This document shows positions 8,401-56,844 of a DNA stretch of 64,000 nucleotides, in pieces. The DNA is from Closterium sp. NIES-65 (Eukaryota; Streptophyta; Zygnematophyceae; Desmidiales; Closteriaceae). Numbering within the stretch: the first letter of the stretch is position 1; every line of letters starts with the position of its first letter. Where the stretch lies: assembly GCA_948144175.1 (NCBI GenBank), contig CANXME010002006.1:558001-622000 (forward strand), written 5' to 3'. A model generated the notes under the pieces. The model made no database searches. It was not told the DNA's origin and saw nothing but the letters and a program-made list of their open reading frames with translations. The translations under genes were made by a program, and so were the position numbers.

Positions 8401-9984
8401 GGAAGAAGAGGAGCAGCCGAGTGATTTTCAGAAACTTGTGGCAGCTGTACCACCCGAACTTCAGGCACTACTGAAACGGTTCCCGGGTATCTTTCCGGAT
8501 GACTTACCGCAAGGGCTGCCACCTCATCGGGCGCATGACCATAGGATCGAGTTAGAACCCGGGGCACAGCCAACTGTCGAACGCCAGTTCCGACTGACAC
8601 AGCCCGAGCTCGACGAACTGAGGAAGCAGTTAGATTATCTGTTAGAGAAGCAGTTTATCCGACCGAGCTCGTCACCATTTGCCGCACCGATACTGTTCAC
8701 ACCGAAAAAAGACGGAGGGTTTCGCATGTGCATCGACTACCGAGCGCTTAACAGGGTAACACTCAAATCGCGGTACCCCATCCCCCGCGCCGACGAACTG
8801 ATCGACCAGCTACGAACCGCACGAGTATTTTCAAAAATCGACTTACGATGAGGTTACCTTCAGATTCGGGTCGAACCCTCGGACTGCGCCAAGACAGCTT
8901 TTAGGACTAGGTACGGGTCATTTGAGTATACGGTGATGCCTTTCGGGCTGACCAACGTGCACGCCACATTTTAGATGACCATGAACGAGGCGTTTAGGCC
9001 ACTTTTAGATAAATGCGTGATAATTTACCTCGACGACATTCTCGTTTACAATCGGGACCAGTAGCAGCACTTAGTAGATCTCGTAGCAGTTTTAAAAATT
9101 TTAGAGGAACATCGGTTACTCACCAAGGGCTCCAAGTGCGAGTTTTTCCGGGACAGGCTATAATTTTTAGGACACGTTATTTCGGAGGCTGGGGTTTAGA
9201 TCGACCCAAAGAAGCTGGATACCGTAAAAGCGTGGCATCCACCGACGAACATCACGGAACTGTAGAGTTTTTTAGGCTTCGTTAATTACGTTCGTCGTCG
9301 GTTCGTCCCCGACATGGCACGCTTTACAGCCGCGCTCACTGATTTACTGCGTAAGGGGGTCGTTTTTACGTGGGGGGAGAAAGAGCATGCTGCCTTCTCT
9401 GCCCTGAAAACTGTTCTCTGTTCACCACCCGTCCTACGCATCGCTGACCTACACCGCCCCTTCGAGGTTGTTACCAACGCGAGCGAAATCGCCATTGGAG
9501 CCGTACTGTTACAGGACTTCGGCAACGGCCTCCAACCCATCGCCTACGAATCACGCAAACTGCATCCACTTGAGCGAAATTACCCGATACACGACCGCGA
9601 AATGCTCGCGATCGTGCATGCATTCAAAGTGTGGCGCTGCTACTTGACCGGCGCAGACGTGACAGTACGGACAGACCATCGATCCCTACAGTACCTCCGT
9701 GCACAGCCCCACCTCAACCCACGACAGATTCGGTGGCTCGACTTTCTCGAGTCGAACTTCCATCATACGGTCACCTATAAAAAAGGAGCCTCGAATATAG
9801 CCGACGCACTGACCCGCCCCACTGCCCAGATCCATGCGATACTACTCGCCCAGACCAGCCCGCTACTGACAGGACTATACCCACGGATATCAAACAGACC
9901 CATTCTTCACATGAGGAAACTCGCAGCAGTTCGCAGCAGCCAAGGGAGTCTATTACGTAAAAGCTGGAACTGACCGCATCTGGG
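8401..9984 (+). pseudogene. Gypsy-1 reverse transcriptase and RNase H segment
   Basis: Continues Gypsy-1 after Copia-A. The sequence starts [13 protein letters not shown] and runs through the RT N-terminus ([47 protein letters not shown]), the catalytic IYLDDILVY (about 9030) and the RNase H (RPFEVVTNASEIAIGAVL at about 9460, with N in the place of the usual first D; ESRKLHPLERNYPIHDREMLAI; VRTDHRSL; SNIADALTRP). In-frame stops interrupt it at about 8849, 8972, 9061, 9160, 9198 and 9263. The segment ends where T1 is inserted with target CTGGG (9980-9984). The order RT-RNase H-integrase confirms gypsy. Confidence 0.9.
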
Positions 9985-10238
9985 TGTCAGAATTATATTT
10001 ATTATAACTGCATGTAGTTCTAGCTGTAGTGTAGTTATTAAGTTTGTAGGTGGTGCACCTCTTCTTTTGTTTCCTATGCTATATGTTCCTTGAACCTATA
10101 GTGAAACTCATTCTCCTCCCAACTTTTTTCTCTCGACTCTCTTCTCCCTAGGAAAACCCACTCGATACCTAAGTTGGGCCTAGGCTCCTAAGCCTAGGCC
10201 CTAGTTAAATCTTACCATTCTCGCATAAGATTTTAACA
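9985..10238 (+). repeat. T1 5' LTR
   Basis: 254 bp, TGTCAGAATTATATTTATTA to TTTTAACA. It contains a TATA-rich start and the palindrome GGGCCTAGGCTCCTAAGCC region near its end. Pairs with 11192-11445. Confidence 0.9.
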
Positions 10239-11191
10239 TGGTAGCAGAGCGAGTTTCGTCCTGGCCTGTGGGCCCGCCCAATGCTTCCGCTGCTGTAATT
10301 CTGGTCACGCGCCTCGGGCGCGTGACGTTTTTCTTTTCTACCCGTCGCGGACCCGCCCCCTTTGGCGCCCGCGGCGGTGCTCTTGGCGCCCGCGGACCCG
10401 CCTTCGGCGCCCGCGGCGGTGCTCTTGGCGCCCGCGGACCCGCCTCTGGCGCCCGCGGCGGTGCCCTTTGCCGTCGCGGACCCGCCCCTGGCGCCCGCGG
10501 CGGTGCTCTTGGCGCCCGCGGACCCGCCTCTGGCGCCCGCGGCGGTGCCCTTTGCCGTCGCGGACCCGCCCCTGGCGCCCGCGGCGGTGCCCTTGGCGCC
10601 CGCGGACCCGCCTCTGGCGCCCGCGGCGGTGCCCTGCGCCATCGCGGACCCGCCCCTGGCGCCCGCGGCGGTGCCCTTGAGCCGCCGCGGACCCGCCCCT
10701 GGCGCCTGCGACGGTGCTCTCCGCACCTGCATTCCCTGCAGCCGCCCCTGACCTACCTGCCCCGGCTTTCTTCCCGCCCACCCCCTCCTCCTTCGTCTCC
10801 CTGCAGCTGTGGGGGGGAGGGTATGGGGGTGGCGGGTGTTAGAGTGCTGGGCCGTATCCTTCCCTTCCCCTCCTCCTCCGTTTGTTCCCACTGCTGCAGC
10901 TGCCGCTGGGGGGGGGGGTGTGAGGGTGTGGGGGAGCAGGGGGAGTGGCATCGCGGTGGCGGGTGTGAGGCAACCAGCAGCCGTCCCTCCACCTCTCCTC
11001 TCTTCCCCCCCTCTCTGCTGCTCCAGCAGCAGTGTGGGGGAGGGGAAGGAGGAGGGTGAGAAGATGGTGGAGGTGACCAGCGTGTGTCAGCCCGCCTGGA
11101 GTACCTGCTGTTGCTTGATTTATTGTTTGTTGGTGTACCTCTGCAGGTTGTGCTCTGCACTTAGCTAATCCTGCATGCAGTTACGGGGGGA

Positions 11192-11445
11192 TGTCAGAAT
11201 TATATTTATTATAACTGCATGTAGTTCTAGCTGTAGTGTAGTTATTAAGTTTGTAGGTGGTGCACCTCTTCTTTTGTTTCCTATGCTATATGTTCCTTGA
11301 ACCTATAGTGAAACTCATTCTCCTCCCAACTTTTTTCTCTCGACTCTCTTCTCCCTAGGAAAACCCACTCGATACCTAAGTTGGGCCTAGGCTCCTAAGC
11401 CTAGGCCCTAGTTAAATCTTACCATTCTCGCATAAGATTTTAACA
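11192..11445 (+). repeat. T1 3' LTR
   Basis: 254 bp, identical to the 5' copy on visual comparison, followed by the CTGGG target duplicate. Confidence 0.9.
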
Positions 11446-11700: not shown

Positions 11701-11925
11701 TGTCAGAATAATATATAGTTTTATATATTGTTTTGTAACTGCCTGTAGTGTAGATTACTGTAGTTATACAATGTTCTGTTTTGGTGGTGCACCTTTTCAT
11801 TTTGCCTATATGTACTGCTCGCTCTATAGTGAAACCACTTCTTCTCTTCCAATTCTCTCGACTCTCCTAAACTTACTCGAACTCAACCATGGCTCCTAAG
11901 CCTACCCATTGCTAGTATCTTGACA
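11701..11925 (+). repeat. T2 5' LTR
   Basis: 225 bp, starts TGTCAGAATAATATATAG and ends CTTGACA. The central GGTGGTGCACCT box and CTATAGTGAAAC are shared with the T1 LTR. Confidence 0.9.
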
Positions 11926-12930: not shown

Positions 12931-13155
12931 TGTCAGAATAATATATAGTTTTATATATTGTTTTGTAACTGCCTGTGGTGTAGATTACTGTAGTTATACA
13001 ATGTTCTGTTTTGGTGGTGCACCTTTTCATTTTGCCTATATGTACTGCTCGCTCTATAGTGAAACCACTTCTTCTCTTCCAATTCTCTCGACTCTCCTAA
13101 ACTTACTCGAACTCAACCATGGCTCCTAAGCCTACCCATTGCTAGTATCTTGACA
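12931..13155 (+). repeat. T2 3' LTR
   Basis: 225 bp copy of 11701-11925, followed by target duplicate GTGAC. Confidence 0.9.
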
Positions 13156-15398: not shown

Positions 15399-18300
15399 AT
15401 GGCAGCTTTGACAGCACTTGCCCGTTTCACGACTCGTTTCGCCGCACCGTCGATCGCGGCGAGTCGCGTGCGACAAAATGCGACTATTTCCAGTATCTCG
15501 AGCGTGGCGTTAAGAGTCGAACGACCTCTCCATGCCTCGCGAACGGTGCAGCGCGCCGCGCAACGAAGCTTCCCCGCGCGAACATTTTGCAGGTTCGTCT
15601 TCCAACACTTAGTAAGCGAGTGTGAAGAGAGAAATAAATAAGGACAGCATAATTTGGAACACATGCATTTCATCAGGATTCTTGTACAGAAATTATATAC
15701 TATTGCACGAAGAAACGAATAGAAGCACACATGCGAGAACGCGTTTGAACCCTTTGTCTTTTATGAACTAACCTAATATGGAGCTACAGATGAGTATTTA
15801 TTTTTCTGTCTCGCTTGGCTTGATGCACCACCCTTTTTTTTGTTGTTGTTTCCCCCTCCCCCTCCACCTTATCCTTCCCCACGCCTTCCCCTCCCCCTCG
15901 ATTTCTCCGCACCGTGTTCCTTTTTCCGCAAATCGCGGCAGCGTGGCGAACGAGCAGGCGGAGGCGGAGAAGGCGGCGCAGGACATGCTGTCGGACCTGG
16001 AGCCCGATAACCGCGCGCCCGTCACCATCATCACCGGCTTTCTCGGCTCCGGCAAGGTTAGTTTCGAGGCGCCTCAATACTAGAAGGGGAGGAAGAGGGG
16101 CCGAGGGGGGAGGGGGGAGGGGGGGAAGGGGGGAGGGATGGGGAATGGGGGAGGAGGGGAGGGGGCATGCTGTCGAATCTGGAGCCCGATAACCGCGCGC
16201 CCGTACACCATCATCAGCATCTTCCTCGGCTCCGGCAAGGTGCGACACCAATCGCTCAACCGTGCCATCCCACCTCGCTCCACCCCACCCCACCCCACTC
16301 CACCCCATCCCCCACCTTGAAGTTTTTGCCATGATCACCCACTTCCTCAGTTTCGGGCAGGGTGCGGCACCAGTGCTCATATTTGTTTGCGCGTGATCCG
16401 GATCAGGACTTTTCCGCGAACTGTAACCGTGGTTATTCATTTCATAACCGTAATTTAAGTTCTTATATGTTCGTAACCGGTAACCCTTGTGCTTGGCTGC
16501 AGACGACGCCGTTGAACTGCATCCCGAAGGCGGACCACCGTGATCTAATATAATCTGGTGTGAACCTTTTTTTTTTTTTTTTTTCAATTATTTTGTGTTC
16601 GTGTCTTCGTGGGTTTGGCTGGCCGCAGACGACGCTGCTGAACTACATCCTCAAGGCGGACCACGGCAAGCGAATTGCCGTCATCGAAAACGAGGTGAGC
16701 CAAGTCGACAGTTATGTTATGAGGCGGCTCAAAAGACGACGCTGCTGAATGCTTGTGACTCGACTCAAAAGTGAACTACATCCTCAAGGCGGACCACGGC
16801 AAGGGAATTGCCGTCATTGAAAACGAGGTAAGCGAGAGTTACAAGTCGCCAAGCTGTTGCGAACAAGGTACGCGAAGCTAATCGTCATTTCAATACTGGT
16901 ACACGGCGTAATAATCAGAACCAAGTATTCGAGATTTACTACGAGTTCGTTAAGAACCAGCCAAGCCAAGCGAGCGAGGGCCTGCGCACCGTCTTGGTGA
17001 CAAGCAAAGGGATCTGGGCCTTCTGTTATAATGCCGTCCGTGCGAGAGAGTTGAGAGTTGAGCTTTCAGGCCGTACTCTTGAGACATTTCGAAAATACTC
17101 TTTATACATCAGGCCGTACTCCACCTTGTGGACATTGACGGGTCGCCCGTGGCGTGGCGGTCGCGCTGGGAACTCGTTTGGTTCACGTTACTCGAATCCC
17201 GTTTCTTGAATCCCGTCCCGTGGATCCCGTTATTTGAATCCCGTCCGTCCATTGGTTTTCCGCAGTTGGATATCGATGGGTCGCTCGTGGCGGGCGCGCT
17301 GGGCACTCGTTTGGCTCGCTTACTCTAACCTCGAAATGCTGTTCCTTAGATTCATAAATCCCGTCCGTCCATTGGATTTCCTCAGTTCGGCGAGGTGGAC
17401 ATCGACGGGTCGCTCGTGGCGGACGCGCTGGCGGGGTCGGAGGACGTGGTGGTGCTCAACAACGGCTGCCTGTGCTGCACCGTTAGAGGCGACCTCGTTA
17501 GGATGCTCAGCGATCTCATCACGACGAAGAGGGACAAGTTCGACCATATTGTCATTGAGACCACGGGTGAGTGAGCCACTAGCGCTAGCCGGTAGCCTCT
17601 AGCCGTTAGACGGTGCACTGGCGGGGGGTGAGGGCGTGGTGGTGCTCAACAACGGGTGCCTGTGCTGCACCGTGCGAGGGGATCTAGTGCGCATGCTCAC
17701 TGATCTTATTACCACTAAGAGGGACAAGTTCGATCAGATTGTCATTGAAACAACAGGTGGTGGAGGGAGGGAGAGAGTGAGGGGGTGAATGGCTGTGTGG
17801 GTGGGTGAGTGAGGGAGTGAGTGGGAGTTAAAGAATGAGAGAGAATTAGCGGTCCGAGGATGTGCATGTGGTGGTGCTCAACAATAGATACCCGTGCTCT
17901 GCATGATGCAGGGGAAGCCTTGTTAGAATGTTTATGGCTTTCCTTTGCACAAGCATTCTCCCCATCTTTCCCCCCTCGTCCTCCCCAGGCCTAGCCAACC
18001 CAGCGCTCATCATGCAAACGCTCTTACTGGAAGAGGAGCTGGAGGAGGGGTTACACTGAATAAGAACACTTGGTGGTTGCAGGGAGCAGCAGCGCTGTTT
18101 ATCTGGGCTTTCCTGTCCTGCCCTCCCGTTCACCCTCAAACCCCCGTCCACCTTTTTTTTCTTCTTCTACGTACCGTCCCCTCTCCCCCCCTGTCCTCCC
18201 AGGCCTGGCGAACCCAGCGCCCATCATTCAGACGTTCTTCCTGGAAGAAGAGCTGGAGGAGGGGCAGAGGCTGGACGGATGGAGTGGTTCCTAATGCCCC

Positions 18301-20930
18301 AAACCCCATGCTCCCTCTCTCCCCTCCCTGCCCCCCCAGGCCTAGCGAACCCAGCGCCCATCATTCAGACGTTCTTTTTGGAAGCGGAGCTGGCAGAGGG
18401 GCTGCGGCTGGATGGAGTGGTGACGCTGGTGGACGCCAAGCACGTCACCCGCCACCTGGACGCCGCTTCTTCCCTTCCCCACTCTTCCTTGCTTTCATGA
18501 CATCCCATGACCCATTCTCCCCTCCATTTCCTTTTTTCATTTGCTTTTATTTGGCTCTTCCGTCCCCTCCTTCTCCCACAGGTCTAGCCAACCCAGCGCC
18601 CATCATTCAGACGTTCTTCCTGGAAGAGGAGCTGGTGGAGGGGCTGCGGCTGGATGGAGTGGTGACTCTCGTGGACGCCAAGCACGTCACGCGCCACCTG
18701 GACGCGGCAGAGAAGGCTGCAGCAGAGGGGTCAACGGAGGTCAACGAGGCCGTGGAGCAAGTGGCTTTCGCTGACCGGCTTATTGTTAACAAGGTGAGTT
18801 GAGGAGAAGTGGTAACCCTAGTGGACGCCAAGCACGTAACCCACCACCTGGACGCTTCGGAGAAGGCGGCAGCAGAGGGGTCAACGGAGGTCAACGAGGC
18901 CGTGGAGCAAGTGGCCGTCGCCGATAGGCTTATTGTTAACAAAGTGAGAAAAGAAAAGAAAAGAAAAGAAAAGTAAAAAGATCATGAGGGGTCAACGGAG
19001 GTCGACAAGGTCATGCAGCAAGTGGCGTTTGCTGAGCGGCTCATTGTTAACAAAGTGAGCCGGGGAAAAAGAAAAGAAAAAAAGTCAGAGAGGCCAACCA
19101 GGCTGTAGGCAGATGGCGTTCACCTTATCGTCAACAAGGTGAGTGGGAAGAAACACTCTTTCTCTCTCCGCCACACACTCAGTTTCGTTCCCCTCTCGCT
19201 AGCTAGCTTGCTCTCCCTCTCTACCACACACATCCCTCCTTCCTCTTCTATTTTCCTTGTTGCTCCTCGTCCCCACGTGCAACTGTAACAACAGCAGACA
19301 AATAGTTGTCACTATGATCTGATTTGGTTATGCTACGATCTGGCTCGCTGTGTGTTGCAGATCGACCTTGTGACGGACAGCGAACTCAAGGATCTCGTCG
19401 AGAGGCTTCAGGTAACTAGAATTCTCTGCGCTTCAGATCCGGTACTCAATGCCCGTCATGTCATTTCTCCCTTCTTTTAGTGTGTGTGTTAAGTTGCACC
19501 GTCTGATCTTGTGCACATCGGAGAATCAGACCCCCTGACCTTGTTTAACTCCGTATGGGTGGCAGGATATCAACTCCATGGCTCGCATGAGCAAGGCGTC
19601 GTACGGCAAGGTGGATCTGGACTATGTGCTCGGCATTGGGGGCTTCGACCTCGAGAGGTGCGTTTCTGTGGAGTCGACTTTAAGAAAAGGTGACTCTTTG
19701 AGTCGATTCAAAACGAGGTGGCTTTTGAGTCAGCTCGTATGAGCATGGCGTCGTACTGCAAGGTGGACCTGGGCTATGTGCTCGACATTGGTGTGTTAGA
19801 TGTTGAAACATCTCACGTGAGATCCATATTGCAATGATCCACCAGAAACCCCCAGCTCGAATGCTGTTATCGATACTGTATGGTCGTCCCGTCCCTTCAT
19901 TCTTTCTTTTCTTTCTTTCTTTTGCAGGATTGAGAGGGACGTGCAACCTCACATTCTGAATGAGGGAGCATCCCATGACCACCACCACCACCACGAGCAC
20001 GACCACGACCATGACCATGAGCATGAGCACTGTGGGACATGCGGTGGCGATCACTCCACAGAGGAGCACGGGCACGACCACCACCACCATCATGACCATG
20101 ACCACAGCCACAGCCACTGTAAGTGTCTCACTCTTGAACCGTACAGGAAGCTTTGGTGGGAGAAAGCAACCCCATTGTATTGGTGGGAGAAAGCAACCCC
20201 ATTGTATTGGTGGGAGAAGGCACTCTGACAGGATCTTGTCTGTGCATCCCTGCTGTGTGCATTCCTCCTTGCCTCCTCGCCTCCTTGCCTTTCTTTTTTT
20301 TCCAGCCCATGCGAAGCACGCAACAGGTGTCTCATCAGTCAGCATTCAGTGTGAAGGCAACCTCGACCTGGAGAAGGTACACTGCACCTCATCGTGTCCT
20401 CCATTGCCATTTCTTAGTTCTTTTCTTAATCGCCTTACTTCACCAAGCCATTGTTTTCCAGGCTGTGCTGTGTACGGTATTATTGCCTTTTTTTTTCACC
20501 TGTTTTGAAATATATGGCTCGGTTTTGCATTGATTAAATGTGCACCATTCTCTCCATGTGGCTTGCCTTTGCAATCCAGATTAACGACTGGTTGGGAGAC
20601 TTGCTTGCGGAGAAGAGTGATGACATCTATCGCATGAAGGGTGTCCTGTCCATTCACAAGTGCCGGGAACGATTTGTCTTCCAGGTAAGTCTACCATACA
20701 CTTAATTGTCCAACCTTCTCTAATCTTGGACATTACCTTGGCAACTTACCTGAAACACCATCCTCTATTGCGTGGTGGTCTTGTTGCAGGGCGTGCATGC
20801 TCTTTTTGAGGGTTCTCCAGACAAGCCATGGGGTCCGGATGAGAAGCGCTCCAACAGAATTGTCTTTATTGGCCGCAACCTGAATGAGGCAGAACTTAAT
20901 GAAGGGTTCAGGAGCTGCCTTCAAGCTTAG
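15399..20930 (+). CDS. CobW/COG0523 G3E GTPase, zinc chaperone ZNG1-like, 11 exons
   Basis: Predicted GTP-dependent metallochaperone of the COG0523 family, whose eukaryotic ZNG1 members hand zinc to client enzymes. Exons I join in frame: 15399-15592, 15942-16056, 16629-16694, 17386-17566, 18582-18793, 19361-19411, 19566-19657, 19928-20118, 20306-20376, 20580-20684, 20790-20930; about 472 aa. Exon 1 encodes an Arg/Ser/Ala-rich leader (MAALTALARFTTRF), likely an organelle presequence. Walker A GFLGSGKTT spans exons 2-3 (about residues 96-105). The zinc motif GCLCC (about 152-156) is in exon 4, ETTGLANP at the exon 4/5 junction, NKID at the exon 5/6 junction. A His/Asp-rich metal-binding loop lies at about 320-370 and the CobW C-terminal domain follows. 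All introns are GT-AG. Partial exon copies crowd the introns. Copia-B sits 18 bp after the stop. Exon 1 is the least certain part. Confidence 0.85.
16165..16373 (+). repeat. ZNG1 exon 2 echoes (3' part with donor, two copies)
   Basis: 16165-16239 repeats the end of exon 2 (GCATGCTGTCG, GAGCCCGATAACCGCGC, CTCGGCTCCGGCAAG) followed by GTGCG, a possible donor. A more eroded copy follows at about 16328-16373 (ACCCACTTCCTCAGTTTCGG, then GGTGCGGCACCAG). Both lie downstream of the full exon. Confidence 0.8.
16503..16827 (+). repeat. ZNG1 exon 3 echoes on both sides of the exon
   Basis: Upstream copy at 16503-16545, preceded by its own CTGCAG acceptor (ACGACGCCGTTGAACTGCAT), which runs into a stop. 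Downstream copy at 16733-16827, interrupted by about 23 bp, ends GAAAACGAG followed by GTAAGC. The full exon is 16629-16694, the copy with both good splice sites. Confidence 0.8.
17109..17935 (+). repeat. ZNG1 exon 4 echoes (two upstream, two downstream)
   Basis: Upstream copies at about 17115-17175 (GTGGACATTGACGGGTCGCC) and 17267-17320 after CCGCAG (TTGGATATCGATGGGTCGCT) hold only the start of the exon. Downstream copies at about 17607-17757 (near-intact from GCACTGGCGGG to the end, with GCLCC codons and a following GTGGTG) and 17850-17935 (eroded) hold only the later part. The full exon is 17386-17566. Confidence 0.85.
17989..19139 (+). repeat. ZNG1 exon 5 echoes (three upstream, three downstream)
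   Basis: Upstream partial copies start at 17989, 18203 and 18340, each straight after a polypyrimidine tract and CAG, and each beginning GCCTAGC or GCCTGGC as in the true exon. Downstream partial copies at about 18810-18943, 18986-19053 and 19095-19139 keep the exon end (CTTATTGTTAACAAA or similar) followed by GTGAG. The full exon, with both ends, is 18582-18793. Confidence 0.88.
19723..19790 (+). repeat. ZNG1 exon 7 echo
   Basis: Repeats the exon 7 core (GAGCATGGCGTCGTACTGCA, GGCTATGTGCTCGACATTGG) 70 bp after the true exon 19566-19657. No donor is retained. Confidence 0.75.
20152..20220 (+). repeat. Tandem 26-bp repeat in ZNG1 intron 8
   Basis: Unit TTGGTGGGAGAAAGCAACCC plus CATTGTA, present about 2.6 times between exon 8 and exon 9. 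Simple local duplication. Confidence 0.8.
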
Positions 20931-20948: not shown

Positions 20949-21505
20949 TGTCAAATGTTGTAGCCTGTGTTGGAAACAATAAGTCCTAAGTGCGCTTCTG
21001 TCGTATCAAAATCCAAGGCACCAAGCGAAGCAGTCCCAATCGAAGCATCGAGTCAACCTCGGAGGTTAGGGTAACCGCCTGGAGGTTACGAGAAAGTCAA
21101 AGGTCGCTGACCTTTGACTCGACAATTACAGCGCGACAGTTAAGGACACACAACTGACTCGTTACAGAGCAGTTGCCCGAGTCGCACTATATCGAACCGC
21201 AACAGCAATACAGTTATCTATCTATCTATTCGTATTCCCTGTACTCTTATATAAATCCTTGTATTTGCTTGTTTAATTTAATCTACTTTGCTCTCACACA
21301 CCAGTGCAAGGTCGGTTCACAATCCTCATTAAAACGCTTCCGCTATTACAAGTTTCTACCCAAGAGTTCTCCTCTGCAAAGATCCTAAGGGCTATTTTTC
21401 AGCCCAACAGCCTGTAGTGAGGTTTGTCTTAGGGGGTACAGAAGTTAGGGTTTGTTATATGTACCCCAACCAACATCAATGGCATCATCATTCCTCATTT
21501 TGACA
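20949..21505 (+). repeat. Copia-B 5' LTR, interrupted
   Basis: Two pieces: 20949-20967 and 21415-21505, which align end to end with the Copia-A LTR (TAGGCTATAGTG against TAGCCTGTAGTG, then TAGGGGGTACA and TTAGGGTTT). The gap is exactly the solo LTR plus one GCCTG target copy. The LTR ends TTTTGACA directly before the primer site TGGTATCAGC at 21506. Confidence 0.88.
20968..21409 (+). mobile_element. Solo LTR of the Copia-C family, nested in the Copia-B 5' LTR
   Basis: 442 bp, TGTTGG to CCAACA, with perfect target duplication GCCTG (20963-20967, 21410-21414). It matches the reverse complement of the Copia-C LTRs at 50780-51214 and 56410-56844, so its sense orientation is +. TATA box TTATATAAA near 21247. 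A 25-bp hairpin at 21095-21119 (AGTCAAAGGTC arms) is conserved in all three copies. It was formed by recombination between two LTRs after insertion. Confidence 0.9.
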
Positions 21506-28306: not shown

Positions 28307-28744
28307 TGCTGCTTTGTACCCACTATGGTAGTTGCCATGAAACTGCCTCACTATACAACAGTAGCAGAGGGTGTAACCATTCAAACATATAACCTAGGTT
28401 TCCTCTTTCTAATCTAAGCTGCAACTTTAGTCACATCCAGTTTTACAGCATGGGTTCTGTGGGCTATGGATCAGATTGCTCCCTGCCTGAGCATGTCCAC
28501 CTTTTTCTTGCAGCAGTTCTAATGCACAACTATTGCAACCAACCTGTCCTAGTAACCATGGAATCTTGGATCAGTAGAATAGAATGGTAGTAGTAATCTG
28601 AATGGAATCAACAAAGCATGCATCATCTTGGCTTCTACGTACTTGAAGCAGAGTAATAACTGCAGCAGCAGCTGAGCCATGTTATTTTGTTATGGTGCAG
28701 GCACTGGCGATAAAATTGACTTCAGAGGTTTTCACATTGTTTTG
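28307..28744. other. Displaced ZNG1 3' flank and SCE1 3' UTR (convergent genes)
   Basis: About 440 bp of AT-richer, repeat-free sequence between Copia-B and the SCE1 stop. Before insertion it directly followed the ZNG1 stop, so it should contain the original polyadenylation signals of both convergent genes. I could not single out either signal. Confidence 0.5.
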
Positions 28745-29638
28745 TCAAATGAGAGAAGGGTATTGCTTTGCCTGCTCCTTCACCCTCTTTTTGTACTCCA
28801 CCGTGTCCTGAAAGAAAATCACCCAGCACAATCAAATCAGGTGTCAAAAGCAGCCATGCACATCATGCAAACAAATGATGTAGCTGAAGAAATTAACGGA
28901 CCTGCGTGAAGAGCTGGTAAGCATCAGTTTGAGCTGGATCGGCAGGGTTTGGCTGGTCAAGCAACTCTTGAATACCAACAAGAATTTGCTTCACAGAAAT
29001 AGCTGGTCTCCAGCCCTGAAGACGGAGAACAGAGACGCGGAAGAAAGAAAGAATAAGAGAGATAGAAAGAGGCAGGTAGCGGGGGAGGGGAAAGAAAGTG
29101 GAGGAAAAAAAAGTTTGCACAGACACAAGCGGCGCCGAACGAGAAGCAGCATGCTACTGCAAGAGATACTGACATAGTCTTCGTTGAGAATGCTGAGGCA
29201 CACCGTGCCTGACGGATAGACGTTCGGATGGAAAAAGCCTGGAGGGAACTTGCACTTTGGCGGCTTCGATGGGTAGTCTTCTGTAAAATGTATCGTCAGC
29301 GGATAATGGCCACCTTCCCAGTCCGTCTGCGATAAGGCGAGTGTTAGATGAATACTACGGGAGCAAAACAGAAACAGAAAGAGCTACTCGATATCTACTC
29401 ACGTCCTTCTTTCCAGGTATAACGCATTTCCATGTCATCATGTCTGTCGAGCCGTCATCTTTTGCCTCTGGTCTGGCGACAAATCCCTGCACGGTGTGAC
29501 AATAGTCCACGTGTCATCCTACGTAAACGCTCAAAACCGCATCTTGCGAGCATCAAGTCACTCACGACTCACGTGCGGATGGTTCTTCCGCCAAGCTTTT
29601 CGTTCTTCCGTCAGCCTACCCAAAGAGATCCCCGTCAT
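28745..29638 (-). CDS. SCE1: SUMO-conjugating enzyme E2 (UBC9/SCE1), 5 exons
   Basis: Exons on the minus strand: 29573-29638, 29403-29486, 29174-29326, 28902-29015, 28745-28807. Every junction is GT-AG and in frame. The product is 159 aa, the standard length. It accepts SUMO from the E1 and passes it to substrate lysines, mainly in the nucleus. The N-terminus ([22 protein letters not shown]) has the basic helix that binds SUMO and E1. The catalytic signature [17 protein letters not shown] places the active cysteine at residue 93, as in human UBC9. The plant-type NEDYGWRPA, the [12 protein letters not shown] segment and the C-terminus [18 protein letters not shown] are complete. No stops, frameshifts or exon copies, which contrasts with the neighbouring genes. 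Very likely functional. Confidence 0.97.
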
Positions 29639-30571
29639 GGAGTCGAAGTACGGCAAATATGTTTTTGGCCAGCGATTATACAAATAAGGCGGTCGTTCAA
29701 CGTCGAACGGTTCCTAGTGGCACACTATCTTAGAGCAGCGCTGACAGATTCGGGACAGGACGGGACTGCAGCTTTCTGTTGGTCGCAGTGATCCAGAGAG
29801 GTCTGACACCTCGAGAACTGAAGCGGGAAGAAAAGGAACCTGGCTTGATACACGCAGTTCGCTCGTTTGCTGGGTCGATAAGGCAAGTAAAGAAAGAAAC
29901 ATGGCATCATGCGATCATAATCCTTCAACATAGTTTTCCAAGCAAAATTCTTCATCACTAGAACCATGTCATATACTTCAGGCATCGGTGCCACAACTGA
30001 CAAAAACCAGAGGTTTTGAATTTTTTATGATTTGAGACAATCATCGTACAGTTTGAGCTTAGGCTCAAAGGGTTGTTAGAACAACACATAAACCTGACCT
30101 CTAGGGACGGGAACAAGAAATTGCTCAGATTTAGAAAGCTTGCTTTCTCTTACTTATCATTTGGCATCGTTCTCATTTCAACTGGCAAATTACAACATGC
30201 ACCTCGAGCTAGGAAGCAGAAGTGCTAGTACATGTTACTATACTGCGTATCAATCATTGTACTAGCGATTCCTCATGCTACTTGATGTCTATCATGCTAC
30301 AAGCTATCGATCTTCTCGTTCAAGCAGCGTCGATGATGCCCGTCAGTGTTGGGGCGGGGGGTGGGAGAGTTGCATGAGCCGTTGGAAAACGAGAGACGTG
30401 GGTGGAGGGAAATGAGCTCCAACCCACGATTTGTAGTTGGAGAAGGGCGTTTAGCGCGCTTCGACGATGCCAAAACATGCGTTACAAGCAGCTGCGCTTT
30501 CGAAATACGTAATTTTGAAAAACACTTCGTGTGTTTAAAAATTATAATATGTTGAAGCAACAAACCACACC
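29639..30571. other. Intergenic region between SCE1 and the DnaJ-type gene
   Basis: About 930 bp upstream of SCE1 (minus strand) and downstream of the DnaJ-type gene. It should hold the SCE1 promoter and 5' UTR and the other gene's 3' UTR. No ORF, repeat or RNA gene that I can support. Confidence 0.5.
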
Positions 30572-32263
30572 TTAATCGTCTACAGCACCACCATCAACGC
30601 CATCTGGAAATGTGACACATTTGTACACTTTACACTTCTGACAGAGCGTCATCCCCAGCTGCAAAGACCAAGAAAAGAAGTTCAGTGAACAGGTTACTGG
30701 AGAGAGGAAGTAAAATGGGGTAACACACAAGCAGCCTGGAAGAGGACGCCTCGCAGGTGCAGTTCAAACTGTTGCAAGGACAGAAGACTGGGTGCTGCTA
30801 GGCCTGTGTGTAGAAGCGTCAGAAGCTTACCATACACAAAAATATGCATGCAGTCACACACACTTGAGTTAACTCAGAACGAGGTGACTACATAGCCTAA
30901 CATAAAACCCACTGTTTGTAAAAACGGGCCAAGATGACCATACACACGAAGATACATGCAGTCTCACACAGACTAGCATGCAGAGGCATGTACATATACA
31001 CACACGTCCCCTCATCTCTCTCCTGCCAACCCCTTCCTTCCCTTAACCCACCAAACCCTCCAAACCACACACAGCCACACGGACTCACGGCGTAGCAGCC
31101 AGGGCAGCGGCGGAAGAGGCGTTTGTTGACCTTCACGTTCACCCTCTCCCCCTGGCACACCTCACACTGCAGCCAGCCCTGGCCGCTGCAGTCCGGGCAT
31201 GGAATAGTGGAGCTGGAGAGAACAGCCTGGGAAACAGCAGGCGTTGGGAGTAAAGAGGCAGAGGGGAGGATGCGGTGTTTGTTGACTTCACTGTGTGACC
31301 CTCACGTTCACTCGCTGCCCCTCGCACACACACCTCGCACTGCAGCCAGCCAGCCAGCCAGCCCTGGCCGCTGCATTCCGGGCATGGAATAGTGAGGCTG
31401 GGGAGAACAGCCTGGGAAGTACCAGGCGTTGGGAGTAAAGGGGGGGAGGGAGAAGGCAAGAAAGAAAGAGGCGTTTGCTGATTTCATTGTGACTGCACGT
31501 TGACCCGCTGCTCCTGGCATACCTCGCACTGCCCCCAGCCCTGGCCGCTGCAGTCCGGGCATGGGATGGACGGGCTGGGGAGAAGCGCCTGGGCGACAGC
31601 AGGCGCTGGGAATCAGAAGGGGGAAGAGAGAACAGGAGGAGGGCACAGGGAATGGTAGGGCTTTGGGGTGGAGACTGAGGATGGGGAAGGGAGGAACAGG
31701 TGAGCTGGAAGGGATGCCTCGGTAAGCAACAACCATCAGCGACGTGTGCTTCTGCCAATGCAGCAAAACTGACGTTGGAAGTGTACGATTGGACTTTATA
31801 TGAAGTGTACATGTATTGGTGGTCCATAGACCGTGTAACATAACGTGGTGGTGGTTAATGGTGGTGGTGAAGCATGATCTCGTGCTTCCAGGGTCAACGG
31901 AGTCAACGGCGGCGATGCAACAGATGCATCAGACGCACGAAACCTTGGGGCGCGCGCCTCAAAACTTTAAGCAGGTGAATCGGAAATCGGGAATGCACTA
32001 ACCTCTGAGGTAGACGATGACGATGACGACGCGGCCAGTACGACGTTTCGCGTGGAATCAGCTACTGGAAATGTGGAAGATGGTCGTCGGAGAGAGGAGG
32101 ACCGGCGGCGTAACCGTCCTTGGAGGGTATTGGTTGACGTAACGAGCTTGTGACCAGAGAGCGGTTGGGAAGCTCCTGATGCGGATCGGACAGCCGTTCT
32201 GTGTGCAGCAGCGCAACCTACGGCGGCTGGGACGGCGGAATGCGGAGCGAGAAGAGAGGTCAT
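30572..32263 (-). CDS. Small Cys-rich DnaJ-type zinc-finger protein, probably plastid-targeted
   Basis: Exons: 32003-32263, 31089-31226, 30572-30658, all joining in phase 0 with GT-AG introns; 161 aa. Residues 1-87 are rich in Ser, Arg and Ala with few acids (MTSLLAPHSAVPAAVG), a typical plastid transit peptide. The mature part has four CXXC pairs: CPDCSGQGW, CEVCQGE, CPGCYA, LCQKCKVYKC. This matches the zinc-finger domain of DnaJ proteins without a J domain, the class that includes plant BSD2-like chaperones. Such proteins bind two zinc ions and assist folding or assembly of plastid proteins; the client here is unknown. Two non-spliceable copies of exon 2 lie in intron 1. The start at 32263 is the first ATG of an open exon; upstream exons cannot be excluded. 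Confidence 0.75.
31306..31588 (-). repeat. DnaJ-type gene exon 2 echoes (two copies upstream in transcription)
   Basis: Copies at about 31490-31588 and 31306-31411 repeat the acceptor side of exon 2 (CCCAG then GCGCTTCTCCCC or GCTGTTCTCCCC) and the zinc-finger codons for IPCPDC/ECSGQGW and CEVC. The second copy has extra GGCT units adding LAGWLAGW. Neither ends at a good donor. The true exon at 31089-31226 is the only one with both sites. Confidence 0.85.
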
Positions 32264-34941: not shown

Positions 34942-35234
34942 ATGACGAGCGGGAGATTGAGATAGGCGCGCCAACCGGCGTGAGCCACGTGACGCACGTC
35001 ACCTTCGACCGCTTCCAGGGCTTCCTCGGCCTCCCGGATGACTTTCACGGCGAGCTGCCGGCACGAGCTCCCAGCGCCAGGTAGGGGGATTCAGAGAACT
35101 ATTCAGGGAGATTGCACGCCAAGGGCATATGAAGTTGCTGTTAGGGTCTCTCGGGTCTCCTGAGCTTCCAGGGCTTCCTCGGCCTCCAGGACGACTTTCA
35201 CGGCGAGCTGCCTGCTCGAGCCCCCGGTGCAAGG
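34761..35234 (+). repeat. RopGAP CRIB-exon echoes (one upstream, one downstream)
   Basis: The upstream fragment at 34761-34795 repeats the exon start with a stop (ATGACGACTTGG, TTGACATAGGCGCG). The downstream fragment at 35166-35234 repeats the end (CTTCCAGGGCTTCCTCGGCC onward) and is followed by GTGAAC. Intron sequence is duplicated as well: GGGAGTTTGCAGGTCAGGTG and following bases occur twice between 35259 and 35362. Confidence 0.8.
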
Positions 35235-38200
35235 TGAACATGAAGGGAGGCTCTTGGGAGTTTGCAGGTCAGGTGCATATGAAGTTGCTGTAGGTGACTT
35301 TTGAGGCGCCTCAAAAGTCTCTTGGGAGTTTGCAGGTCAGGTGCATATCAAGTTGCTGTAGGTGTTGATGGTGCACCTCTCCTCACACCTTTGCACCTCC
35401 TCCCTCTTCCCCCACCCCAACTCCACCCCCCTCCCAACGCACTCCCCCGCTGCCCGGTCAGTCGGAGTGTGTTTGGGGTGTGGCCGGAGACGCTGCAGTG
35501 CTCGCACGAAACATCCCGTCTTTCGTTTCGTGCAGATGGTGCAGCTCTCCGTATTCTCACCAACATCCCGTCTTCCGTTCTGTTCTGTTACACACAAACC
35601 CCCATCAACCCCCCACCAGTCGGACTGTCTTTGGGGTGCGACCGGAGACACTGCAGTGTTCGCACGACTTGGAGGGCAACCAGGTGCCGGACATTCTGCT
35701 GCAGCTGCAGGCGATGCTCTACGGCAAGAACGGACTGCAGGTGCGTGCTGTGCTGGTGGTGGTGGTGCCTGGGACGAGTCGCCTGTCGCCTGGGCCCTTG
35801 GTTGGGTATCTGTTCTGTGGTCGTTTCTGTTTCACACAGCTGCAGCTGCAGGCGCTGCTCTACAGCAAGAGCGACTTGCAGGTGCATGCTGGTGCTGGTG
35901 CTGGTGCTGGTGCTGCTGCCTGGGGTGGGTGGGTGTGAGTGAAGCCGGCAAGCACGTGCCAGTCTGCTCCTTGATCGCCATCCTGCCTGCCAATCATCCC
36001 ACCTGCCAGCTTCGCTTGCCAATACAATGTTAGATTCTGTCCCTTCCTGTCTCACCGCTCACATCCCTCAACCCTGTCCTCGCCCATCCCCAACCCTCTT
36101 CGCCCCACAACTTTCATTGGAGGGTGGCAGACGGAGGGCATATTCCGAGTGGCAGCGCAGAACGACCATGAGGACTTGATCCGAGAGCAGGTGGGCCTGA
36201 CAGTGTGTGTGTGCGTCTGTGTCTGTGTCTGTCTGGTGCGAGCTGCTTCTGGTTGTGAGACACCTCAAAGCTCGAAAATGGCAGCACAGAACGGCCACGA
36301 GGATTGGATCCGAGAGCAGGTGCGTTGTCTGGCTGGCTATGTGTCGTGCCAGCTGCATTGCTTGCTGCCTGCACCCACCAATCATCAACCATCAACCATC
36401 AACCATCAACCACCAACCATCAACCATCAACCATCAACCATCAACCACCAACCATCAACCATCAACCATCAACCATCAACCATCAACCATCAACCATCAA
36501 CCATCAACCATCAACCATCAACCATCAACCATCAATCATCAATCATCAATCATCAGGCATGGCATGGCATCGTTGAATCCTCCCCCCACCACCACGGTCG
36601 CATCACCTTCATATCACGCACCACCTTCATATCATGCACCACCTTCATGTCATGCACCACCTTCATATCATGCTATGAAGGAGGTGAAGCATGATATGAA
36701 GGCACGGACACCAAACCTGCATCGTGTTGATGTCCATCCCTGCATCGTGTTGATGTCCATCCCTGCATCGTGTTGGTGTCCATCCCTGCATCGTGTTGAT
36801 GTCCATTCCCTGCATCGTGTTGATGTCCATCCCTGCATCGTGTTGATGTCCATCCCTGCATCGTGTTGATGTCCATCCCTGCATCGTGTTGATGTCCATC
36901 CCTGCATCGTGTTGATGTCCATCCCTGCATCGTGTTGATGTCCATCCCTGCATCGTGTTGATGTCCATCCCTGCATCGTGTTGATGTCCATCCCTGCATC
37001 GTGTTGATGTCCATCCCTGCATCGTGTTGATGTCCATCCCTGCATCGTGTTGATGTCCATCCCTGCATCGTGTTGATGTCCATCCCTGCATCGTGTTGAT
37101 GTCCATCCCTGCATCGTGTTGATGTCCATCCCTGCATCGTGTTGATGTCCATCCCTGCATCGTGTTGATGTCCATCCCTGCATCGTGTTGATGTCCATCC
37201 CTGCATCGTGTTGATGTCCATCCCTGCATCGTGTTGATGTCCATCCCTGCATCGTGTTGATGTCCATCCCTGCATCGTGTTGATGTCCATCCCTGCATCG
37301 TGTTGATGTCCATCCCTGCATCGTGTTGATGTCCATCCCTGCATCGTGTTGATGTCCATCCCTGCATCGTGTTGATGTCCATCCCTGCATCGTGTTGATG
37401 TCCATCCCTGCATCGTGTTGATGTCCATCCCTGCATCGTGTTGATGTCCATCCCTGCATCGTGTTGATGTCCATCCCTGCATCGTGTTGATGTCCATCCC
37501 TGCATCGTGTTGATGTCCATCCCTGCATCGTGTTGATGTCCATCCCTGCATCGTGTTGATGTCCATCCCTGCATCGTGTTGATGTCCATCCCTGCATCGT
37601 GTTGATGTCCATCCCTGCATCGTGTTGATGTCCATCCCTGCATCGTGTTGATGTCCATCCCTGCATCGTGTTGATGTCCATCCCTGCATCGTGTTCATGT
37701 CCATCCCTGCATCGCGTCACCTCCCTTCCGTACGCTGTAACGTGTGCCGGTCATGCATGCTATACTCTCCCTCTCTTTCTCCCTCTCCCTCTCTGTGTGC
37801 TCCTTGCCTGCACCTCGCCTTGCCTCGCGCCATGCTGCAGGTCAACCTGAGTCTGGTGCCGCGCAACATCTGTCCCTGCATTTTCTCCTCTCCTTGTGCT
37901 TCCCTCACCCCCCCCCCCCCCCCCCCCCCCCCCCCCGCCTCGCCTCACCCCATGCAGGTCAACCTGGGTCTGGTGCCGCGCAACATCGACGTGCATGCCA
38001 TCGCAGGCCTCATCAAGGTACGCCCCTCTCTCCCTCCCCTCTCCTCCCCTCCCCTTCTCTCCGTCATCTTTTTCCTTTCCCCTCTTCTCCCTCACTCCCT
38101 TGCCTCCCCTCCTCTCCCTCCTCTCCTTCCGCTCCCCTCTTTTCCCTCTTCCCCATCTTCCCCTTCCTCTCCCCCTTCTCCCGCTTCTCCCACCCATCTT

Positions 38201-41200
38201 TCCCTCCCATCTTTCCCTCCTCTCCCTCTTCTCTCTCCTCTCTCCCCTCTTCCGTCCCCTCCCTACCTCCTCCCCTCCTTTCCCTCCGCATTGCTGTGCC
38301 TCTCCGTTACCCCCATCCGCATCCTTATCTCCATGCCCACCCCCAGGGTGTTTTTGAGAATTCTCAAAAACACCCTGCAGCATTGCTGTGCCTCTCTTTT
38401 ACCCCCATCCGCATCCTCATCTCCATTCCCACCCCCAACCCCATCCCCATCCCCTTCTTCCCGTTCTCCCCCTCCCTTCTCTTCAACTTTCCCATTTCAC
38501 CCCTCATCCAGGCGTGGTTCCGCGAGTTACCAGAGGGCCTACTGGACCGCTTGAAGCCAGAGAAGGTAGCGGCAGCAGAGAGGGAGGAGCAGATGCTGGC
38601 GCTCGTGGCCACACTGCCCGCCCTGCCTGACCTGTACCCCCACCCCCGCACCGCACCCTCCCACTCAATGCAGGCGTGGTTTAGGGAGTTACCAGAGGGT
38701 CTACTGGACCGCTTGAAGCCAGAGAAGGTGGCAGCAGCGGAGAGGGAGGAGCAGATGCTGGCGCTCGTGGCCACACTGCCCGCCCTGCAGGCTGGCATGC
38801 TGGACTGGGCGGTGGGGCTGATGGCGGACGTGGTGCAGCACGAGGCGAGCAACAAGATGAACGCGCATAACATCGCTGTGGTGTTCGCTCCAAATATGAC
38901 GCAGGTGTGTGGGTGCATTGGGTGGGCCGGGGTGTGGGGTTCTGGGAATGGGCAGTGGTTGGGGTGAATTTGGCGGTGGATGGGTTGGGTTGGGTTGGGT
39001 TGGGTGTAGTTCAGTCTTGAGAGCTCTCACTGCTGGACTGGGCGGTGGGGCTGATGGCGGACGTGGTGCGGCACGAGGCGAGCAACAAGATGAACGCGCA
39101 TAACATCGCTGTGGTGTTCGCGCCCAACATGGCCCAGGTGGGTTGCTAGGTGCCTCAGGTGGGGTTTCAGGTAGCCCAGGTGGGTTGGCCAGATGGCCCA
39201 GGTGGGTTTTGAGGTGGCTCAAAAGGCAGCAAGAAGATGGGGAAGGGCGTCGTTTATCCTTCTTTCCTCCGTCCAACTCTGTCTCTTGCTCCTACCCTCC
39301 TCCCCTCTCCTTCCCTCCTCTCTTCCTCGTTCCCCACCCCCGGACCCTCTCCCACCCAGATCGTTGACCCCCTCCCACCCAGATCGTTGACCCCCTCCCA
39401 CCCAGATCGTTGACCCCCTCCCACCCAGATCGTTGACCCCCTCCCACCCAGATCGTTGACCCTCTCATCGTCTTCCAGCACGGCAGCAAGGTGACGGACG
39501 GACCTCCTCTCAGAGCGCTTGTGCAGCGCAAGCTCAAGCACACAGCTCAAGCACACAGCTCAAGCACACAGCTCAAGCACACAGCTCAAGCACACAGCTC
39601 AAGCACACAGCTCAAGCACACAGCTCAAGCACACAGCTCAAGCACACAGCTCAAGCACACAGCTCAAGCACACAGCTCAAGCACACAGCTCAAGCACACA
39701 GCTCAAGAAGCCCTTCTTTCTGCCTTTCCCCTCCTTCCTTCTCCCTCCTTCCCCCTCCTCACTCAGATCATGGACCTCCTCAGAGCGCTTCACACTTGCC
39801 CCTTCCTCTCCTCTCCCCAACCAATCCCTCTCCCTCCCTCCACTGGCCCCCTGCTCTGCCCCCAATGGCCCCCGGCTCTCCCCCCACTGGCCCCGGCTCT
39901 CCCCCCACTGGTCCCCGGCTCTGCCCCCAATGGCCCCCGGCTCTGCCCCAGATTGTGGACCCGCTAATCGGCTTCCAGCATGTCATCAAGCTCATGGACC
40001 TGCTCAGAGTGCTCGTGCAACGCAAGCTCAAGCAGCGCCTCGACAACCCCCCTCTGTCCGCCGCTCCTCTCACGGACCAACCAGCACAGGACGGGGCAGA
40101 GAGGGGGGAGAGGGAGGAGGAAGGGGAGGAGGAGGAGGAGGAGGAGGGACAGGAGCGGCACGGTTCAGGCAGATATGGTGGCTTTCTCGGGAATGGTGTG
40201 CATGAAGAGAGCACAGGTCATGAGGAGGAAAGGGAGGAAGATGATGAGAGGGGGGGAGAGCCGTTATTGGATGAGTGCACAGCACCTCTGGCAGGAGATG
40301 ACCCTCACACGCCCATTGCCAGACCTCTTGTTCCCGAACCTCTCCTTGCCGAGCCTCTCATTCCCGGACCTCATGGCGAGCGTCCGTTTGGTTCGCCTAG
40401 CAGAATGGGAGAGAGGAGATGCGGAGGAGGAGGGGATGGAGGTCGGGCGGTGGAAGGAAGAGGGGGGAGAAGAGGACGACCGAGCAAAGGGAGAGGGGCA
40501 GGGCGAGGGGGGAGGGGGGTCGGGCGAGGGGCAGAGGGAGAAAGAGTGGCACTAGGAGTTGCAGGAGGGGCAGGAGTGGGAGGGGTAACGGGAGGGGTTG
40601 GAGGGGTAACAGGAGGGTTTGGAGGGGTTGGAGGGAGCCGAGGTTGTGGTGTTCCCGTGTGCAGGAGTGAGGAGGTACAGGGGTCAACTTGGATCGTTGA
40701 TAATAGGCTTGAGGGGGACAGTGCATGTGATCGGCAAGAGGGGAGCAGCGGCAGCGAGGGGGAGGCAGTGGTGTGTCATGGGTGGGACATGATGCCAGCT
40801 GTAACGGGCAATTCGCTTCCGGTTTCGACCAGTGCTGGCGATTCTGCACACCAACGGCAGCAGCAGCAGCAGCAGCCGTTTAAGCCGGCGTGGAAGCAGC
40901 GCGGTGCAGAGCGGTGCAGCACATTGAGCATGGAGTGCGGGCTGAGCATGGATGGCAGCAGCATGTTCAGTCCACACGGGGGCATGCTGAGTCCGTGTGA
41001 GAGCATAGACAGCCCGGGGGGGGTCCTTGCCACGCCCGTGGGTCTCACAGGGGCAGCTGCAGCTGCTGCTGCTTCTGACCCTGCCTTGTTCCTGAGGTTC
41101 CGCAGCGATTCGCGGGAACAGCAGCAGGGGCTTCTCACTCAGGCGCCTCAGCAGGCGATCCTGCCTGCTGCGCCCCCCGTTGGAGGGACTGTTGGCCTCT

Positions 41201-50779: not shown

Positions 50780-51214
50780 TGTTGGGCTGAGAAGCCCTAG
50801 GATCTTTGTAGAGTTTAAGGACTGAGTAGGATTGTAATAGCGGAAGCGTTGTAATACAGAGTGGTTGAACCACCTTGCACTAGTATGTGAGAGCAAAGTA
50901 AGTTAGATTAAACAAGCAAATACAAGGTTTATATAAGAGTATAAGGAATACGAATAGATAGATTTAAACCGTTTTACTGTTGCGATTCGATACAGTGCGA
51001 CTCGGGCGACTGCTCAATGTCGAGTCAGTTGTGTGTCCTTGCTGTCGCGCTGTAATTGTCGAGTCAAAGGTCGCTGACCTTTGACTTTCCCGTAACCTCT
51101 AGGCGGTTACCCTAACCTCCGAGGGTTGACTCGTGATGCTTCGATTTGGGCTGCTTCGCTAGTGTCCTGAGTTTCGACACGACAGAGGCGCCTTAAGACT
51201 TATTGTTCCCAACA
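50780..51214 (-). repeat. Copia-C 3' LTR
   Basis: 435 bp; includes the 25-bp hairpin at 51062-51086 and, on the sense strand, a TTATATAAA TATA box. Pairs with 56410-56844; homologous to the solo LTR at 20968-21409. Confidence 0.93.
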
Positions 51215-56409: not shown

Positions 56410-56844
56410 TGTTGGGCTGAGAAGCCCTAGGATCTTTGTAGAGTTTAAGGACTGAGTAGGATTGTAATAGCGGAAGCGTTGTAATACAGAGTGGTTGAAC
56501 CACCTTGCACTAGTATGTGAGAGCAAAGTAAGTTAGATTAAACAAGCAAATACAAGGTTTATATAAGAGTACAAGGAATACGAATAGATAGATTTAAACC
56601 GTTTTACTGTTGCGATTCGATACAGTGCGACTCGAGCAACTGCTCAATGTCGAGTCAGTTGTGTGTCCTTGCTGTCGCGCTGTAACTGTCGAGTCAAAGG
56701 TCGCTGACCTTTGACTTTCCCGTAACCTCTAGGCGGTTACCCTAACCTCCGAGGGTTGACTCGCGATGCTTCGATTTGGGCTGCTTCGCTAGTGTCCTGA
56801 GTTTCGACACGACAGAGGCGCCTTAAGACTTATTGTTCCCAACA
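56410..56844 (-). repeat. Copia-C 5' LTR
   Basis: 435 bp, the transcription-start LTR of the minus-strand element; the hairpin is at 56692-56716. Confidence 0.93.

Follow-up and report, generated by a model that had tools for sequence, protein, structure and literature searches.

The DNA analysed here (the window) is a stretch of 64,000 nt from Closterium sp. NIES-65. It carries a ZNG1/CobW-type GTPase gene, part of a RopGAP-like gene and a zinc-finger gene, in all of which partial copies of exons, here called echoes, were found. The genes and their exons are as follows.

15399..20930, plus strand: ZNG1/CobW-type GTPase gene with 11 exons, defined by the translation of the joined exons and by homologues
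15399-15592, 15942-16056 (E2), 16629-16694 (E3) and 17386-17566 (E4), plus strand: ZNG1 exons 1-4
18582-18793 (E5), 19361-19411, 19566-19657 (E7) and 19928-20118, plus strand: ZNG1 exons 5-8
20306-20376, 20580-20684 and 20790-20930, plus strand: ZNG1 exons 9-11
34942..40060, plus strand: part of a RopGAP-like gene with a RhoGAP domain and a domain that we take to be CRIB; same exon order as NIES-68 protein P0121
34942-35080, 35620-35740 and 36131-36190, plus strand: RopGAP exons R1-R3
37958-38017, 38674-38904 and 39952 onward, plus strand: RopGAP exons R4-R6
31089..31628, minus strand: zinc-finger gene, presumably of the DnaJ type given its CXXCXG motif; exon 31089-31226, upstream echoes 31262-31450 and 31487-31628

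Analysis of the ZNG1 exon junctions revealed GT..AG at all of them, and the joined complete exons translate into an intact protein of 472 residues, so that the initial annotation was right in stating that the complete copies join in frame to a full CobW protein. The translation contains the P-loop GFLGSGKTT and a CLCC motif, which we take as markers of the CobW-type (ZNG1) GTPase family, and it matches the family over its full length. Its best match, protein P0001 of Closterium sp. NIES-64, carries PF02492 and PF07683 and differs by three substitutions and one gap of a single residue. In NIES-68 the ZNG1 and RopGAP genes are found on contigs of equal length (1,661,439) under close gene numbers (CLOM_g4243 and CLOM_g4246), which is consistent with the gene order in the window.

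Several further long open frames in the window encode Copia-type retrotransposon proteins. Minus-strand frames of this type are bracketed by direct repeats at 50780-51214 and 56410-56844, which are 98.9% alike and probably mark a young insertion as its LTRs. A sequence related to them (84%) follows ZNG1 directly, at 20967-21409. Two other direct repeat pairs, 9982-10238 / 11189-11445 and 11701-11925 / 12931-13155, are each more than 99% identical and about 1.2 kb apart. No repeat pair was listed at the minus-strand gene at 28700-29750, which we take to resemble a SUMO/ubiquitin-conjugating enzyme.

BLAST comparison of the 17 exons of ZNG1 and RopGAP with the introns (E≤0.01) gave 23 matches to the exons' own gene, 13 of them from five of the 11 ZNG1 exons (E2, E3, E4, E5 and E7) and ten from all six RopGAP exons examined. 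All 23 were on the same strand and adjoined their own exon, with 25-140 nt of exon matched, while the control, in which exons were compared with the introns of the other gene, gave a single low-complexity match on the opposite strand. ZNG1 exons 1, 6 and 8-11 had no echoes at this threshold. One weak RopGAP match (34760-34788, E 0.007) lies 5' of R1, the first exon examined, in a stretch that is perhaps not intron. The partial self-copies around E2, E3, E4, E5 and E7 described in the initial annotation were thus confirmed, and its count of at least 15 ZNG1 fragments is reached when the weaker E2d2 and E5d3 are added to the 13. The echoes are not confined to the one gene that it describes, as RopGAP and one exon of the zinc-finger gene have them too. 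The echo pattern is real, above control and wider than first described. The individual echoes are listed below.

16163..16239, plus strand: E2d1, 3' part of E2 with donor; one-base insertion; neutral-looking
16329..16363, plus strand: E2d2, weak 3' fragment of E2, donor
16503..16549, plus strand: E3u1, acceptor and 5' part of E3; null fraction of the flank score 0.037
16736..16827, plus strand: E3d1, full copy of E3 split by a 26-nt insertion with a palindromic motif; donor
17128..17169, plus strand: E4u1, 5' part of E4
17237..17302, plus strand: E4u2, acceptor and 5' part of E4; intron flank copied
17615..17756, plus strand: E4d1, 3' part of E4 with donor; gap-free; intron flank unrelated
17851..17930, plus strand: E4d2, degenerate internal fragment of E4
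17989..18050, plus strand: E5u1, acceptor and 5' part of E5
18203..18288, plus strand: E5u2, acceptor and 5' part of E5
18340..18466, plus strand: E5u3, acceptor and 5' part of E5; coding part gap-free; flank unrelated
18808..18943, plus strand: E5d1, 3' part of E5 with donor; 47-nt tract identical to E5
18986..19054, plus strand: E5d2, 3' part of E5 with donor; neutral-looking
19090..19138, plus strand: E5d3, 3' part of E5 with donor; degenerate
19733..19800, plus strand: E7d1, fragment of E7, neutral-looking
35164..35233, plus strand: R1d1, 3' part with donor; intron flank copied; 6 synonymous and 2 nonsynonymous differences
35462..35509, plus strand: R2u1, acceptor, 5' part
35839..35881, plus strand: R2d1, 3' part with donor; intron flank copied; neutral-looking
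36279..36319, plus strand: R3d1, 3' part, donor
37841..37870, plus strand: R4u1, acceptor, 5' part
38512..38626, plus strand: R5u1, acceptor, 5' half
39031..39137, plus strand: R5d1, 3' half with donor; complements R5u1 with a 9-nt gap
39452..39540, plus strand: R6u1, acceptor, 5' part

The arrangement of the fragments follows the exon edges. The exon's first base and the start of the fragment are at most 9 nt apart in 11 of the 12 upstream fragments, and the exon's last base and the fragment's end at most 2 nt apart in nine of the 11 downstream ones; in 20 echoes the acceptor AG was present in 9/9 and the donor GT in 11/11. The geometry, which had been called strict, therefore holds for most fragments but not for R6u2, E4d2 and E7d1. 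That only one copy per exon is complete also holds, with the reservation that E3d1 is of full length, though interrupted. Each of the 23 matches contains sequence from a single exon only, and this, together with the splice dinucleotides and some intron flank in the 20 echoes, rules out fragments of retrocopies (cDNA) and agrees with the earlier attribution of the copies to DNA duplication. Tandem whole-gene copies later collapsed by deletion were ruled out by the exon-by-exon interleaving of the echoes, and the idea that the E5 fragments are nested like Russian dolls (u3/d1, u2/d2, u1/d3) was rejected since the end points are not complementary. Multiples of three in the echo spacings were inspected by eye only.

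Comparison of the intron sequences next to the echoes showed that the flank was copied (null fraction 0.04 or less) in six of 20 echoes, clearly in R1d1, R2d1, E4u2 and E5u2 (null fraction ≤0.009) and marginally in E3u1 and R3d1; about one such call is expected by chance among 20. A copied flank was not detected in the other 14, a number that includes E5d1, E5d2 and E5d3, which are uninformative and lie beyond the reach of the test because the first of them starts about 14 nt after E5. The statement that intron flanks are copied too is consequently valid for a minority of echoes. The flanks of E4d1, E5u3 and R5u1 scored as unrelated (null fractions 0.93, 0.69 and 0.69, respectively), and these three echoes are 83-94% alike in the exon, with a match that stops at the exon edge.

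A direct duplication across one splice junction yields either an upstream fragment with acceptor and 5' part or a downstream fragment with 3' part and donor, and leaves one intact exon. Random duplications of about 140 nt were simulated over ZNG1-like exons with 300-nt introns, and 42% of them gave the observed geometry (21% upstream with acceptor and 5' part, 21% downstream with 3' part and donor), so that a process targeting splice junctions, as raised in the initial annotation, is not needed. The remaining simulated duplications were confined to introns (38%), doubled a whole exon (14%), lay inside an exon (5%) or were mixed (about 1%). Because whole-exon, in-exon and mixed duplications alter the encoded protein or introduce a second full exon, most of them should be lost, while a duplication across one junction or none has no effect on the protein. 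Unselective local duplication combined with purifying selection would thus leave the sides and splice sites that are observed. Intron-only local duplications do occur in the window, at 35248-35296 / 35316-35364 and at 38288-38343 / 38380-38435 (52 of 56 positions identical).

One possible account of the echoes is ordinary tandem duplication alone, with copies identical at birth that decay neutrally and any synonymous excess due to chance or mutation bias. Such an explanation fits the geometry and the existence of intron-only duplications. Under free decay from identity, nonsynonymous differences per site should accumulate at no less than about half the synonymous rate. On the contrary, hand-summed counts over 26 exon-echo pairs gave 124 synonymous differences at 462 sites and 118 nonsynonymous differences at 1428 sites (pS about 0.27, pN about 0.08), the nonsynonymous count being somewhat inflated by alignment ends; the ratio pN/pS is about 0.3, while the value assumed for copies that start out identical is about 0.55. 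The excess is concentrated in a few echoes. Synonymous and nonsynonymous differences from the exon number 19 and 6 in E4d1, 8 and 2 in E5u3, and 12-13 and 3-4 in E5d1, while R5u1 has seven nucleotide differences and yet the same amino acid in 38/38 codons. E4d1, E5u3, E5d1 and R5u1 together show 56 differences in their gap-free coding portions, where the lack of indels partly reflects how these echoes were picked. The four clearest pairs show 0.20-0.57 synonymous differences per site.

Codon simulations of copies identical at birth, run at transition biases of 1, 2 and 4 on the 19 gap-free matches among the 23 (the four gapped ones were only counted), gave P<0.05 at all three biases for five echoes: E4d1 (0/1500 runs at each bias), E5d1 (≤0.0007), E5u3 (≤0.010), R5u1 (≤0.012) and R1d1 (≤0.028). 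R5d1 was borderline (P 0.03-0.07) and the remaining 13 were compatible with plain duplication. Simulation on eight chosen pairs likewise gave P≤0.0083 for E4d1, E5u3, E5d1 and R5u1. After correction for 19 tests only E4d1 and E5d1 still reject duplication from identity. Among the five synonymous-biased echoes three have the unrelated flanks described above (E4d1, E5u3 and R5u1), which also argue against plain duplication, one has a copied flank (R1d1) and one lies beyond the reach of the flank test (E5d1). At least two of the synonymous-biased fragments, and probably more, thus seem to have separated from the exon now in use when each was still coding. E4d1 carries missense changes (S>G, D>G, S>T and H>Q) at residues kept in all five Closterium proteins seen and is therefore no longer, or not fully, constrained. 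Plain duplication as the sole source, although it would suffice for 13 or 14 of the 19 gap-free echoes, is for these reasons rather unlikely.

Two observations bear on the internal structure of the echoes. The 47-nt tract of E5d1 matches E5 without a difference (P 0.013). At R5, 12 of the 13 differences fall in the outer 82 of 222 nt, in zones chosen post hoc. These mosaic signs suggest several switches. A conversion patch inside E5d1 was not adopted, its P being 0.013 only.

The explanation that we tentatively prefer, at somewhat less than an even chance, is that the echoes are many short same-strand local duplications produced by break repair or template switching from templates of two kinds. 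DNA break repair, or template switching during replication, at or near exons would generate the duplications. Where the template was the same gene copy (class i), the products would be tandem duplications identical at birth that then decayed, for which E2d1, E3u1, E7d1, E5d2 and R2d1 are candidates. Where the template was a putative diverged functional copy, either a homeolog or an allele from a different lineage (class ii), the echo piece or the present intact exon would derive from that copy, and the synonymous differences would predate the adjacency of the two; E4d1 and E5d1 would be the clearest examples, and E5u3, R5u1 and R1d1 less clear ones. As diverged copies can be aligned mainly in exons, strand exchange would be anchored there, and subsequent joining in unrelated introns would leave exon-edged pieces with unrelated flanks. 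Alternatively, the piece may have arisen by ordinary duplication and the exon may later have been overwritten by sequence of the other copy, a course of events that would match the copied flank of R1d1. No function of the echoes is needed. The two classes separate imperfectly, since R1d1 combines a copied flank with differences that are mostly synonymous, and after correction for 19 tests class (ii) stands on two fragments of one gene. The unequal pS of E5u3 (0.24) and E4d1 (0.57) does not fit a single common source copy.

According to PMC10407611, the vegetative cells of the C. psl. complex are haploid with many duplicated genes, within-strain gene pairs peak near Ks 0.35, and in NIES-4550 recombination has joined sequences of unlike origin, as PCR and Sanger sequencing of the borders confirmed. 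The Ks peak and the recombination in NIES-4550 make a diverged source plausible, and the pS of the clearest echoes is of that order.

Upstream and downstream echoes nearly meet at three exons, R5 (38788/38798), E4 (17431/17425) and E5 (18663/18658). Exon transplantation could produce such ends: breaks in exons would repeatedly be repaired with a diverged version of the gene as template, the whole exon and both of its splice sites being copied in, the two halves of the resident exon would become intron, the newcomer would be spliced in its place, and the complementary halves around R5, E4 and E5 would be scars. If so, exons turn over while the protein remains unchanged. Given several fragments per exon, the near-meeting ends may be coincidence, and we consider transplantation unlikely.

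The preserved splice sites and synonymous-biased divergence would also be expected if some echoes are used, now or until recently, as putative alternative partial exons under coding selection. In gene model P0005 of NIES-54 the final 23 residues of E4 appear a second time with no missense change, and in model P0003 of Naga37s-1 E7 is present twice; these models, however, are predictions and not transcripts. Every fragment apart from the interrupted E3d1 is without one side of the exon, and the missense changes in E4d1 fall at conserved residues, so that use as alternative exons appears improbable.

Some pairs differ as functional homologues do, and haploid cultures with many duplicated genes, as PMC10407611 describes them, could in principle lead consensus building or scaffolding to place diverged copies in series. 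The initial annotation had proposed such stitching of divergent haplotypes at conserved exons. Stitching is disfavoured by the graded decay, the inserted base and the missense changes at kept residues, by the six extra E5 pieces, and by the gene models of the two other strains, in which the E4 and E7 pieces repeat directly after E4 and E7. According to PMC10407611, four published C. psl. assemblies were made from PacBio reads (N50 17-30 kb), and for NIES-54 the assembly program was not the one applied to the PacBio strains. An assembly artefact is accordingly quite improbable; the hint of diverged copies in that proposal may nevertheless point the right way, since some echo-exon pairs differ like diverged functional copies.

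The window contains a family of 18-nt palindromes, TTTTGAG-N4-CTCAAAA, whose centre is variable and often itself palindromic; eight of 11 lie in introns of ZNG1 or RopGAP. Nine of the sites are at 16062, 16717, 16753, 19696, 35299, 36253, 38352, 39207 and 42543. The two intron-only duplications enclose perfect palindromes.

35296..35319, no strand assigned: perfect palindrome between intron copies 35248-35296 and 35316-35364
38344..38377, no strand assigned: perfect 34-nt palindrome between intron copies 38288-38343 and 38380-38435

With a four-base centre 11 sites matched at 12 or more of 14 positions, against one for ten other centre lengths together, and over centre lengths 2-10 there were 12 sites, where ten first-order random sequences lead one to expect about 1.6. 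Palindromic sequence that may be breakpoint filler lies between the copies of both intron-only pairs and near some echo junctions. A mutagenic process that targets splice junctions, perhaps tied to this motif, would agree with the preference for one centre length and with the proximity of four of eight intronic palindromes to a listed junction (≤10 bp; expected 0.53, P 0.0008). This test omitted three of the 11 palindromes, at 20804 (exon), 42543 (open frame treated as exon) and 50256 (outside both genes), and placed the E3d1 junction at 16729, the true position being 16736 and the palindrome ending at 16734. Two of the junctions had been recognised through the palindrome itself, which makes the test partly circular; without these two intron-only junctions, 2/8 palindromes lie within 10 bp (P 0.07) and 3/8 within 20 bp (P 0.03). 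The ten upstream-type junctions have no palindrome inside the 20-bp limit. As the geometry is explicable without targeting, such a process is very unlikely, and the modest, partly circular association led us to reject the palindrome as a general cause of the echoes.

Other repeats occur within RopGAP. An array of about 1 kb (36716-37717) in one of its introns consists of near-identical copies of a 23-nt unit, and at 39353-39465 a unit of about 24 nt, recognised by eye, repeats in tandem the acceptor and first codons of exon 6, possibly forming a row of acceptors.

Tandem duplications have reportedly been found in paired-nick work in Arabidopsis and in insertion studies in rice. The closest parallel to the duplication by break repair or template switching that we prefer is provided by the vertebrate local duplications that Pace et al. 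(2009, PMC2671141) attribute to synthesis-dependent strand annealing. Those copies are likewise short (up to 619 bp) and closely linked, sometimes include exon parts and splice sites, and have filler and microhomology at their breakpoints; the Closterium copies are also short and lie within 5 kb of their donor. Exon content is rare in vertebrates, where the donors in Table 2 of that paper comprise 4 partial exon/intron, 2 full exon and 2 intron/full exon/intron cases per 824, whereas 23 echoes are present within two Closterium genes. The two duplicated vertebrate exons tested there showed no coding constraint, whereas a few Closterium echoes diverge as if constrained.

Small tandem duplications formed by fill-in at breaks, as outlined in PMC8355091, are likewise head-to-tail and fit class (i). 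Such fill-in would predict copies identical at birth with copied flanks, unlike the synonymous-biased echoes with unrelated flanks. In tandem exon duplication with mutually exclusive exons (PMC9013439), adjacent copies are also conserved mainly in the exon, but they are complete, with acceptor and donor, and one of them is included in the transcript; the ZNG1 and RopGAP echoes are partial, E3d1 being interrupted. In the hybrid Closterium NIES-4550, too, a single contig can hold joined sequences that differ in origin, though PMC10407611 describes contigs with genes of different origins and not joins inside single exons. Titles and abstract openings of the literature searched reported no partial exon copies around exons in Closterium or other Zygnematophyceae.

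Should echoes prove as dense throughout Closterium, which is closely related to land plants, past repair events could be read from its introns, and swapping of pieces between gene copies of different origin, within single exons and without harm to the protein, would be indicated by the synonymous-biased echoes. This would offer a direct route to exon-anchored recombination, to intron growth and to the high copy-number variation reported for Closterium strains. Closterium gene models can also wrongly take in echo fragments: models P0003, P0004 and P0005 appear to contain exon echoes or an odd start, and two of the five ZNG1 models listed seem to have incorporated such fragments.
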